Origin: an uncultured Isoptericola sp.
Lineage (GTDB): Bacteria; Actinomycetota; Actinomycetes; Actinomycetales; Cellulomonadaceae
Direction: 5' to 3'
Assembly: GCA_947497265.1 (NCBI GenBank)
Contig: CANMFP010000002.1
Span: forward strand, 1 to 64,000
Length of the DNA stretch: 64,000 nt
A program made the translations under genes and the position numbers. Below the pieces are notes generated by a model, which searched no databases, was not told where the DNA came from, and worked only from the letters and a program-made list of their open reading frames with translations. This document shows, one piece after another, positions 241-2,159 of the stretch (the stretch's first letter is position 1; each line of letters starts with the position of its first letter).

Positions 241-795
241 TCAGGCGAGGTGTCGGCGGACTGTGGACACCGACACCCCAAGGGCACGAGCGACGGCCGC
301 GACAGACTGACCACCGGCAACAGAGGCCTGCGCGGTCGCCAGGCGTTCCGGTGACATCACCGTCGGGCGACCGCCTACCCGTCCGCGCGAGCGGGCGGCC
401 GCCAGACCATCAAGGGTGCGTTCGCGGATCAGGTCAGCCTCCATCTGGGCGAGGGCCGCGAGCATGTGCACCATGAATCGGCCGGCCGAAGTGCTCGTGT
501 CGATCTGCTCCGACAGCGACCGCAGGGCAACGCCGCGGCGCTCCAGCTCATCGACGACGTGCACCAGGTGGGAAAGGCTGCGCCCGAGTCGGTCGAGCTT
601 GGTCACGACGACGGCGTCACCGTCGGCGACCTCGGCCAGAAGCGCAGCGAGGACCGGTCGGTCGTCCCGCCGGCCCGACGCCATCTCGACGCGCAGGTGC
701 CGGACATCAACGCCCGCGGCGAGGAGCGCGTCGCGCTGCGCGTCGAGGCTCTGCGTCGACGTGGAGACCCGGGCGTAGCCGAAGGTGATCGTCAT
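241..795 (-). CDS. Serine recombinase (resolvase/invertase family)
   Basis: This 184-residue protein is a small serine recombinase. The N-terminus reads FGYARVSTSTQS, with the catalytic serine at about residue 11. It is followed by TKLDRLGRSL, the helix E region (AQMEADLIRERT) and a C-terminal helix-turn-helix (QSVAAVARALGVSVSTVRRH). The length and layout match Tn3-type resolvases and Gin/Hin-type invertases. The open frame extends much further upstream, but the family N-terminus starts at ATG 793-795. Repeats resembling recombinase half-sites lie just upstream (826-925), where a res or crossover site normally sits. It probably acts on those sites and was brought in with a mobile element. No tnpA-size transposase is visible next to it. 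Confidence 0.9.
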   Translation of the reverse strand: MTITFGYARVSTSTQSLDAQRDALLAAGVDVRHLRVEMASGRRDDRPVLAALLAEVADGDAVVVTKLDRLGRSLSHLVHVVDELERRGVALRSLSEQIDTSTSAGRFMVHMLAALAQMEADLIRERTLDGLAAARSRGRVGGRPTVMSPERLATAQASVAGGQSVAAVARALGVSVSTVRRHLA

Positions 796-825
796 CCCGC
801 GACCGTAGCGAAAACCACTGCCGGG

Positions 826-925
826 GGTTCTGAACCGGCAGGGGTTTTGAACGAGGTTTTTGAACGGCGTGTCGACGGCGCGCCCCGCGCGCGGGCCGGC
901 GGCGTCAGAAACGGTCAGTTCTGAC
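826..925. repeat. Cluster of GGTTC/GAACC-type repeats upstream of the recombinase (res-like)
   Basis: Between the recombinase start and the cadD stop are several related short repeats. There is a perfect 11-bp palindrome GGTTCTGAACC at 826-836. Two degenerate versions follow at about 843-852 (GGTTTTGAAC) and 856-866 (GGTTTTTGAAC). An interrupted inverted repeat has GTCAGAA at 904-910 and TTCTGAC at 919-925. Clustered inverted sites directly upstream of a serine recombinase gene are the usual form of a res site. The assignment is inferred from position and symmetry. Confidence 0.5.
908..923. repeat. Left copy of a 16-bp direct repeat flanking the cadD-cmtR module
   Basis: GAAACGGTCAGTTCTG at this position matches GAAACGGTCGGTTCTG at 2071-2086 at 15 of 16 bases in the same orientation. 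The two copies enclose cadD and cmtR and almost nothing else. They could be recombination-site cores or element ends. Confidence 0.7.
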
Positions 926-970
926 GCGGTGCACAACCTTGTGGGAAGTGTCCAACGCGTCGCCTCTGGG

Positions 971-1582
971 TCACAGCAGCGAGGCGATGTGGGCCAGGGT
1001 GCCGGACTCGATGAGGATGAACACGCCGAGGCCGATGAACACCACGGGCACGAGCCAGTGCTCGACCTTCTCAAGCGCCTCGGTGACCATCTCGTTCGTG
1101 CCGATCGCCCGGGCGAGCAGGCACCACCCGGCGAGCAGGACGAGGAACACCACGATCGTGACCAGGGCGTCCGTGGTGGACATAGTGCGGAACACCGGGG
1201 TGTAGATCGCGATGTTGTCTCCGCCGTTGGCAATCGTGATGCCGGCGACGCCGAGCAGTCCGACCGCCTTCAGCGCCGACTCGGCCTCGTCGTCGTCGCC
1301 CGTGCCGCGCAGCGTGCGCACCAGCCCGAGCACACCGATCGCCAGCGGGATCAGACCGAGCAGGCCGACCCATTCGTCCGGCACGATCGTCAGGCCCAGG
1401 GCGGCCAGGAAGCTGACCGCGATCAGGGTGATCAGCCCAAGGTACTGGCCCGCCACGATCTGCCACCCGCGCAGCTGCGAGGTGCCCCGTGCCGCGACGG
1501 CGAACAGGACGGTCAGCACCACGATGTCGTCGAGGTTGGTCGCGACGAACAACCCGGCCGCGGCCGCGATCGTGCTCAGCAC
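971..1582 (-). CDS. cadD: CadD-type cadmium resistance transporter
   Basis: This 203-residue protein is almost entirely hydrophobic and matches the CadD (LysE-superfamily) family in length and layout. The start reads VLSTIAAAAG and is followed by the family motif ATNLDDIVVL; near the middle it has GLLGVAGITIANGGDNIAIYTP, given here only as a landmark. It should export or sequester Cd2+ at the cytoplasmic membrane. The open frame continues upstream, but the family N-terminus fits GTG 1580-1582. This start overlaps the cmtR stop by 7 bp, so translation is probably coupled. Control by the adjacent CmtR-like repressor is likely. Confidence 0.88.
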   Translation of the reverse strand: MLSTIAAAAGLFVATNLDDIVVLTVLFAVAARGTSQLRGWQIVAGQYLGLITLIAVSFLAALGLTIVPDEWVGLLGLIPLAIGVLGLVRTLRGTGDDDEAESALKAVGLLGVAGITIANGGDNIAIYTPVFRTMSTTDALVTIVVFLVLLAGWCLLARAIGTNEMVTEALEKVEHWLVPVVFIGLGVFILIESGTLAHIASLL

Positions 1583-1947
1583 GCCGACACCTGCCCGTCG
1601 ACGCCGTACGTCGGGCACAGGGCGACCGCGCTGCCCGTCGCGGCGAGCAGCGTTTCGGCTGCTGCGAGCATGTCCAGCAGCTCGGGGCGGGCCAGGGAGT
1701 AGTACACCCGCCGGCCCTCCATGCGCCCCTCGATCAGGCCGCAGTCCTTCAGGCATGCGACGTGCGAGGACACCGTCGACTGCGCCAGGCCCAGATCGCG
1801 CGTCAGTTCCGCGACCCTCGCTTCCCCGACCGCGAGCCGGCGCACGATGGCCAGCCGCGCGGGGTCACCTAGCGAGCGGAACAACGCGACTGCCGGCTCG
1901 ACGTCTGCCGTGCTGGCCGCGCACACCTCAGAATCTATGATCGACAC
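1576..1947 (-). CDS. cmtR: CmtR-like Cd(II)/Pb(II)-sensing ArsR-family repressor
   Basis: This is a 123-residue winged-helix regulator of the ArsR/SmtB family. The DNA-reading helix is around LGLAQSTVSSHVACLKDCGL. It carries Cys65 and Cys69 (CLKDC) inside that helix region and a third Cys at residue 111 (ALCPTYG). This Cys-X3-Cys plus distal C-terminal Cys pattern is the metal site described for mycobacterial CmtR, as opposed to the CXC of ArsR or the alpha5 site of SmtB. The protein should repress its own operon with cadD and release DNA on binding cadmium or lead. The start is GTG 1945-1947, which coincides with the predicted transcription start (leaderless mRNA). Confidence 0.9.
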   Translation of the reverse strand: MSIIDSEVCAASTADVEPAVALFRSLGDPARLAIVRRLAVGEARVAELTRDLGLAQSTVSSHVACLKDCGLIEGRMEGRRVYYSLARPELLDMLAAAETLLAATGSAVALCPTYGVDGQVSAC

Positions 1948-1981
1948 GGGTCGATGATACCCGCTGCGAATCGATCATCAA
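1948..1981 (-). promoter_or_regulatory. cmtR-cadD promoter with overlapping operator
   Basis: On the minus strand there is a -35 TTGATG (1976-1981), a 16-bp spacer and a -10 TATCAT (1954-1959). The predicted start lies six bases on, at the GTG of cmtR, so the transcript is leaderless. GATGAT at 1953-1958 and ATCATC at 1974-1979 form an inverted repeat across both hexamers. This is a natural place for a CmtR dimer to block RNA polymerase. Confidence 0.75.
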
Positions 1982-2009
1982 CCACGGGCTGGCGGCGTTA
2001 CGGCTGCGG

Positions 2010-2086
2010 CAGAACCAGCGCAGAACCCTACGTTTGTCGGGCGCACAGAACCTTCTTTTGAAGCGCCCCGGAAACGGTCGGTTCTG
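2010..2086. repeat. Second cluster of CAGAACC repeats, including the right copy of the 16-bp repeat
   Basis: CAGAACC occurs three times in direct orientation (2010-2016, 2021-2027, 2046-2052) and once inverted (GGTTCTG, 2080-2086). The inverted copy is part of GAAACGGTCGGTTCTG (2071-2086), which repeats 908-923 with one mismatch. The sequence type is the same as the cluster by the recombinase, so the cadD-cmtR module lies between two related site arrays. No gene is visible in 1982-2159. Confidence 0.6.
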
Positions 2087-2159
2087 CGCCCTCTGGCGCC
2101 GCTGTGGCCCTTCGACAAGTCGAGCGAGACGGCCCAGCGGGGCGTCGGGCTCGGGGCAG

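Follow-up and report, generated by a model that had tools for sequence, protein, structure and literature searches.

The window analysed here, a 64,000-nucleotide stretch of an uncultured Isoptericola sp. of the family Cellulomonadaceae (GenBank assembly GCA_947497265.1, contig CANMFP010000002.1, positions 1 to 64,000), carries near its left end a gene for a small serine recombinase and, beside it, a cadmium-resistance gene pair enclosed by two short direct repeats. Comparison with related genomes makes it quite probable that this locus belongs to an integron-like gene-capture system run by the small serine recombinase. We propose that the recombinase (241–795) would act on an attI-like site that lies upstream of its gene (796–923) and also on attC-like sites, one at the end of each gene cassette, represented in the window at 2018–2089. 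Crossover would occur inside an 18-bp core shared by the two kinds of site, most likely at its central GT, which is nonpalindromic and would fix the orientation of the cassette. Recombination of attI with attC would integrate a circular cassette beside the recombinase, and recombination between direct repeats would excise it. We infer this protein to be the enzyme for the sites because of its linkage to them and their co-occurrence, and it is presumably active in this strain at present.

The sequence-only reading of the locus had described near-identical 16-bp direct repeats enclosing just cadD and cmtR, and its coordinates, orientation and single mismatch were all borne out. The repeats GAAACGGTCAGTTCTG (908–923) and GAAACGGTCGGTTCTG (2071–2086) lie on the same strand, differ at one base and have cadD and cmtR alone between them; they bound the cassette correctly. 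Extending both repeats by two bases yields 18-bp imperfect palindromes, the left core CAGAAACGGTCAGTTCTG (906–923, plus strand; E 5.8e-05 with site model R1) and the right core CGGAAACGGTCGGTTCTG (2069–2086, plus strand), centered on G914–T915 and G2077–T2078, respectively. These central dinucleotides are the likely crossover points. The distance between them delimits the proposed mobile cassette (915–2077, no strand assigned), which is predicted to form a circle of 1163 bp on excision. Its cargo consists of the cadmium-resistance transporter gene cadD (approximately 971–1597, minus strand; PF03596, E 1e-39) and a gene for a cmtR-like ArsR-family metalloregulator (1576–1947, minus strand; PF01022, E 7.8e-13). 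Just outside the left repeat cluster, where the same reading had placed a serine recombinase, lies the gene of the proposed cassette integrase, a 184-residue protein of the resolvase/invertase type (241–795, minus strand; PF00239, E 2.9e-42, together with HTH_7). The left core begins 111 bases from its start codon.

The core is rare in the genome. Allowing up to two mismatches, GAAACGGTCRGTTCTG occurs at three places in the 3,765,509 bases of the 41 contigs, namely the two sites of the window with 0 mismatches and one further place with 2, and the same sequence written backwards occurs nowhere across these 3,765,509 bases. A common promoter motif scattered through the genome, one of the alternatives that the sequence-only reading had named as refuting a cassette, is ruled out by the presence of just two exact core copies in 3.77 Mb. 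The ends of a transposon are ruled out as well, since the repeats are direct and a Tn3 transposase was not found in the genome.

The two sites of the window belong to different classes. The paired GGTTC/GAACC clusters that had been noted around the repeats are both real; they are not alike, however, the left one being an attI-like site and the right one a palindrome. The attI-like site (approximately 796–923, plus strand) is proximal to the recombinase, ends in the core and was aligned with seven other such sites. In the alignment of recombinase-proximal sites from several species, a conserved block of about 125 bp stands beside the recombinase and ends in the core. An attI-like core, counted at up to three mismatches, is found 111–122 bases from the start codon at 17 of 24 recombinase loci, two of which hold a truncated recombinase, and the distance is 111–113 bases in 16 of these 17.

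Cassette-end sites have the form CAGAACC-N3-TTNTG, followed by a fixed spacer and the core. They occur in two dialects, the second of which forms a long imperfect palindrome with a degenerate core, in inverted orientation, as its upstream half. Dialect 2 includes the right site of the window and not the left one. This attC-like site (2018–2089, plus strand) is a 72-bp imperfect palindrome of the order R'' (2018–2044), arm (2045–2062) and R' (2063–2089), recognized by its inverted repeat, its fold and the site models; the segments 2018–2044 and 2063–2089 are 78% complementary. Its E values are 1.5e-11 with model R1 and 8.3e-14 with model R2, the site itself being included in the alignments of both models. 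The arm contains a 15-bp accessory half-site pair, CAGAACCTTCTTTTG (2046–2060, plus strand), at a fixed spacing to the core, and the arm-plus-core pattern has matches in the family. Among 41 sites selected by their arm, the central G of the core is kept in 39 and the central T in 38. Outside the core, attI and attC have little in common, and the cassette sites form a distinct conserved class and are not copies of the recombinase-proximal site. Sites inside one array are similar across about 60 bp.

The DNA fold separates the classes in part. The z value is −5.35 for the right site of the window (none of 200 shuffles was as good) against −1.30 for the left one. Eight cassette sites, including the former, gave −5.35, −1.71, −1.20, −3.19, −2.46, −8.84, −8.55 and −2.87, and three attI-like sites, including the latter, gave −1.30, −2.04 and −1.54. 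The palindromic fold is clear in the window and in dialect-2 cassette sites; two dialect-1 array sites of genome G011 (z −1.71 and −1.20; G and L numbers denote genomes and loci here) overlap the attI-like range. A further element, the cassette-head box CTTGTGGGA (938–946, plus strand), stands 14 bases past the core, and the same offset is seen in other sites. The box in the form CTTGTNGGA, with at most one mismatch, was found 14 bases past the core in 9 of 58 sites, the window included, and at 13 bases in one more; in control flanks it was found in 0 of 58. The box may serve as a promoter or as an additional half-site for the recombinase.

Related genomes carry such sites in series. Contig 14 of G011 holds a recombinase-proximal site followed by six cassette sites (L043, positions 9320, 10382, 11458, 13434, which is weak, 14198, 15647 and 16306), and contig 4 of G004 holds seven sites (L080, 7617–14416). 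Shorter series are present on contig 10 of G004 and in G005, G006, G172 and G003, and arrays with at least three sites are found in several genomes. A fixed rule applied to chosen loci returned 63 sites, and all 31 neighboring pairs that lie 150–6000 bp apart are co-oriented. When the central GGT was dropped from the rule, 68 sites were returned, with 30 pairs alike and one opposite; this exception is due to the R'' half of one palindrome (L089). The arm-plus-core pattern with its proper spacer of 11 bases has 51 matches in 19 of the 221 genomes of the family. The reversed pattern has 0 matches in these 221 genomes, and the pattern with a spacer one base longer (12) is matched in 1 of 221. The sequence-only reading would have taken repeats at both places in strains that never carry cadD and cmtR as a sign against a cassette; the arrays point the other way, as the sites flank different cargo there.

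The cassettes behave as units whose boundaries coincide with the cores. A 1717-bp cassette is 90% identical between G004, where it fills the fourth array interval, and G006, with unrelated flanks; the match begins three bases ahead of the first core and stops where the second core ends. The cassette after the third G011 site recurs after the first listed site of G004 contig 4 with 89.6% identity, in a match that starts 10 bases before the core position and ends 75 bp before the next, weak G011 site. Compared among the window, G003, G011 and G004, the attI-like blocks are 79–88% alike, and this identity ends at the end of the core or within about 10 bases of it, except between the window and G003, where it extends 35 bases further. 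The cadD cassette of the window is 84.8% identical to DNA of Isoptericola cucumis that starts at the core and there follows the second site of its locus. Plasmid ORNL-0100 and Cellulosimicrobium composti agree over 9139 bp at 99.9% up to the core and then diverge. In pairwise comparisons between different genomes, 45 of 1261 alignment ends lie at the core in both partners against 0.011 expected, a figure that assumes independent and uniform ends and carries no formal probability, as many of the comparisons share sequences.

The clearest single case is a cassette present in one of two otherwise near-identical sequences. As far as the attI core, plasmid pTL2A matches Cellulosimicrobium funkei JCM 14302 at 99.8% over 2008 bp; on the right side, from the following core through the cad cassette, the two agree at 98.2% over 2163 bp. 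Between the two cores, pTL2A holds a 2202-bp cassette with a histidine kinase and a response regulator, which is absent from this place in C. funkei. Compared base by base, 498 of 499 positions to the left of the core and 479 of 480 counted positions to the right agree. The core of C. funkei reads as attI in its left half and as the cad cassette in its right half. Because the two halves differ in origin, the crossover is placed within the 12-bp interval AAACGGTCGGTT. The search for an empty site that the sequence-only reading had suggested thus found its answer in relatives, with attI joined directly to the cad cassette in C. funkei and one extra cassette between them in pTL2A. The idea of a resolvase-excisable cassette between two res-like sites gains support from these comparisons, although it was too small, since the cadD cassette appears to be one member of an array-forming system. 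The two unequal site classes and the arrays are beyond what the window alone could show.

The recombinase fits the resolvase/invertase family, with PF00239 and HTH_7 both above cut-off, and the best matches of solved structure are to a DNA-invertase and the gamma-delta/Tn3 resolvase. R9, S11, D68, R69 and R72, which we take to be the catalytic residues, are invariant among eight aligned relatives. In a maximum-likelihood tree, the recombinase of the window and 21 others of 62–92% identity form one group with a support of 94/97, which falls just under the value starred by the tool; the group is present in 93% of 200 bootstrap trees. Small serine recombinases of other kinds fall outside this group, and so do TniR-like proteins, which are nevertheless some of its nearest neighbors. 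A recombinase of at least 62% identity is found in 16 of the 221 family genomes and a cassette site (R1 or R2) in 25. Both occur together in nine genomes against 1.8 expected (hypergeometric P 5e-6, with genomes counted as independent). Named carriers at this identity are Isoptericola, Oerskovia, Luteimicrobium, Cellulosimicrobium and one metagenome-assembled genome labelled Mycobacterium; plasmids carrying the gene comprise three Cellulosimicrobium records and one of Paraoerskovia. Other small serine recombinases, of about 42–50% identity, lie near some sites. In Microbacterium oxydans, which has a recombinase of 54% identity (L116), no array-like direct repeats were seen among the 20 of 50 repeat families listed, and the locus was set aside.

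Under the stricter filters of the distribution searches, which lose weak matches, model R1 matched 22 of 221 family genomes, 3 of 396 in the sample of the order (two within the family and one outside it) and 1 of 394 in the sample of the class, this being the genome of the window itself. Model R2 matched 15 of 221 family genomes. Since few R1 matches lie outside the family, we make no claim of wide spread. The match in another family of the same order is a single cassette site (L130, G396 contig 16; R1 E 8.3e-10).

The cargo is unrelated and mixed. Cassette genes were taken from a crude caller of open reading frames (ORFs) based on third-position GC content, so that some ORFs or starts may be wrong. 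It gave 50 cassette ORFs, 40 of which were searched in Pfam; 23 matched, and 17 had no match at 1e-5. The matches include HIT, NmrA-like, MerR, AAA_33, inositol phosphatase, lysine decarboxylase-like, TetR, F420 oxidoreductase, histidine phosphatase, sigma factor, APH-like kinase, GNAT, formyltransferase, sulfate permease, aldo/keto reductase, P-type ATPase, FAD oxidoreductase, metallophosphatase, alcohol dehydrogenase and RibD_C families, as well as a two-component pair. According to the same crude caller, 29 ORFs run along the array and 21 against it. A promoter shared by all cassettes is unlikely given that both directions occur, and the cassettes probably carry promoters of their own. On the Cellulosimicrobium protaetiae plasmid pCPRO01, the gene that follows the attI core (L036 12753–13295) has the annotation AbiV family abortive infection protein, so that phage defence may be among the functions carried by cassettes.

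Several observations weigh against an integron-like system run by this recombinase. A complete co-distribution of enzyme and sites is not borne out, with both shared by the nine genomes given above: 16 of the 25 site-bearing genomes are without a full-length recombinase of at least 62% identity, and no cassette site was recognized in 7 of the 16 genomes with the recombinase. The longest arrays are those of G004 and G011, and both lack a close intact recombinase. G004, with two arrays, has no recombinase at E 1e-40 in its whole genome, and G011 has only a truncated piece of one beside its array (L043 9044–9208), with a neighboring piece inverted. At 7 of the 24 recombinase loci, no recognizable core stands at the expected place, the block being interrupted or joined to other sequence. 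Arrays are a minority among pattern-bearing genomes, as nine of the 19 besides that of the window have a single match (G014, G024, G026, G027, G035, G167, G179, G198 and G200) and the genome of the window has one match too. The platform in the window holds a single cassette, the 1163-bp cadD–cmtR unit, and its mobility is suggested by homology. The incomplete co-distribution lowers our confidence in the proposed system. Site-bearing genomes without the recombinase would be orphan arrays or be served by another enzyme; orphan arrays are common in integrons.

An ordinary pair of resolvase and res site, kept for multimer resolution or left by a transposon, with stray second sites and cassettes formed by rare accident, is unlikely as an explanation of the same observations. 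It would agree with the resolvase/invertase character of the protein, with the proximity of TniR-like proteins in the tree, with half-site pairs whose differing spacing resembles that of a res site and with the recombinase genomes in which no cassette site was recognized (7/16). It does not account for cassette-end sites that are distinct, conserved and co-oriented rather than attI-like copies, nor for arrays of three or more sites in several genomes, and the Tn3 transposase family PF01526 has 0 matches in the genome of the window, with control matches in 2 of 14 genomes. We consider it very improbable that the cassettes are real and site-specific and have been moved in many genomes by a different recombinase, the neighboring one being one of several or not the main one. 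The site-bearing genomes without a close full-length recombinase (16/25) and the relatives of about 42–50% identity near some sites favor this possibility; against it stand the attI-like site with the same core at a fixed distance from the gene at 17 of 24 loci, the co-occurrence of enzyme and sites above chance and, as noted above, the frequency of orphan arrays in integrons.

It is highly implausible that the repeated sites move the cassettes by homologous recombination and that the recombinase is a bystander. The similarity of about 60 bp within an array would be enough for some deletion. However, attI and attC have little in common outside the core, yet the joint between pTL2A and C. funkei falls within 12 bp inside the core, and cassettes recur amid unrelated flanks. 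Modules of the XerCD–dif type (pdif), or classical cassettes of tyrosine integrons, that stand beside a serine recombinase by chance are hardly credible. These systems do resemble the present one in having modules delimited by short sites and in their palindromic cassette sites, but in a search of 18 genomes no protein exceeded the TIGR02249 cut-off for integron integrases; weak tyrosine-recombinase matches were obtained in all 18 and in 14 controls alike. The sites of pdif modules alternate in orientation.

A separate question concerns the palindromes. It is doubtful, although conceivable, that the attC-like sites are recognized or recombined as folded hairpins or cruciforms, which would constitute a second, independently evolved gene capture that reads DNA structure in the manner of integrons, here with a serine recombinase. 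The strongest palindromes are cassette sites. In the 8-bp spacer of dialect-2 sites, which lies outside core and arm, complementarity is 6.44 of 8 with the site's own partner and 5.70 of 8 with other partners; none of 20000 permutations of 16 sites equalled this, and 4 of 20000 did when the window was left out (the near-duplicates L034 16140 and L035 were dropped). The covariation score is 0.133 against 0.091 in shuffled alignments (0/500), and the cells changed on both sides number 24 against 13.5 (2/500). The site at L034 13952–14029, which has a different fold, was kept in the covariation alignment and left out of the spacer and dialect-1 tests. Other results speak against a hairpin. Two further covariation measures are unremarkable (double-change pairs, 58/500; further pair types, 136/500), and neither the R''/R' core nor any dialect-1 site shows a covariation or complementarity effect. 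Moreover, the fold places the central GT in a bulge or an internal loop, relatedness can mimic the complementarity of the spacers, and the serine recombinases known to us act on double-stranded DNA.

Transposons are found at several of the sites. We name their genes TniA, TniB and TniR; the annotations are Mu-type transposase, AAA ATPase and recombinase, respectively. In five genomes (plasmid ORNL-0100, G035, G006, G005 and Oerskovia turbata), the tniB end of a TniABR-like transposon of one type lies no more than about 150 bp from a site or from the start of the recombinase. The elements extend over L035 5250–8072, L041 14552–17367, L042 10326–13135, L084 8608–11420 and L112 7037–9852. L110 and L164 hold a more distant TniA; in both, other sequence interrupts the attI-like block after GTGTCG. 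The name res-site hunters is given to TniABR-like elements in passages of two papers (PMC7765201, PMC12217951), which fits with sites of the resolvase type. In the first 12 kb of the window, whose start lies at the left end of the contig, tniA and tniB have no match and tniR is matched only through the recombinase itself.

Positions 1–76 of the window, at the left contig end, match the end of contig 20 of the same genome with 91% identity (L095 6378–6453). Judging from this match, the assembly probably breaks off at a repeat immediately to the left of the recombinase. The 6.5-kb contig 20 of this genome (G000) also carries a second attC-like palindrome (L095 5478–5565). The right side of this palindrome also follows an attI core in Oerskovia douganii (L113, near 9888), and a recombinase of about 40% identity lies close by in both contig 20 and the Oerskovia douganii locus. 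This palindrome and the nearby recombinase may possibly represent a self-mobile cassette with its own recombinase.

The likeness to integrons is extensive. Both systems combine a recombinase gene and a proximal site with co-oriented arrays of cassettes that have one site each. The cassette boundaries coincide with a short core, the cargo is unrelated, one cassette can be there or missing, and arrays without the enzyme occur. Palindromic cassette sites beside a proximal site that is not palindromic may be a further likeness; it is clear in the window and in dialect 2, and two dialect-1 sites overlap the attI-like range. The protein is nevertheless a 184-residue PF00239 serine recombinase instead of the tyrosine integrase IntI, the core is CAGAAWCGGTCRGTTYTG and not the integron core GTTRRRY, and the cassette ORFs run in both directions. 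With the resolvase–res systems of Tn3 and Tn402 (TnpR, TniR), the present system shares the family and size of the protein, a site directly upstream of its gene, dimer-like half-sites whose spacings differ and, through the TniABR-like elements, transposons at the sites. It differs from them in that no transposase was found by the platform in the first 12 kb of the window, and in having a second, often palindromic site class with arrays of cargo between sites. We know of no serine recombinase beside the sites of pdif modules. The pdif modules of Acinetobacter, which likewise hold modular accessory genes between short recombination sites, rely on XerC and XerD according to passages of two reports (PMC12907356, PMC6449649). 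The resemblance to SCCmec with CcrAB lies in a serine recombinase that inserts cargo at one place, sometimes in tandem. The large serine recombinases of SCCmec are carried inside the mobile element, whereas the small recombinase described here stays with the platform. Among the titles and abstract openings listed by searches of the open-access literature aimed at such a system, a scope that leaves preprints and most subscription journals outside, none describes cassette arrays of a serine recombinase.

Gene capture in bacteria has its textbook example in the integrons, and those described so far depend, to our knowledge, on one lineage of tyrosine recombinases. If the proposed system is real, the integron design would have evolved at least twice, here on an unrelated serine recombinase. 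A clear question would become testable as well, namely why cassette sites form palindromes if the DNA that the enzyme cuts is double-stranded. The system would also offer a small recombinase of 184 residues with two distinct short sites. For the actinomycetes, it would provide a cassette route by which metal-resistance, regulatory and enzyme genes are acquired.

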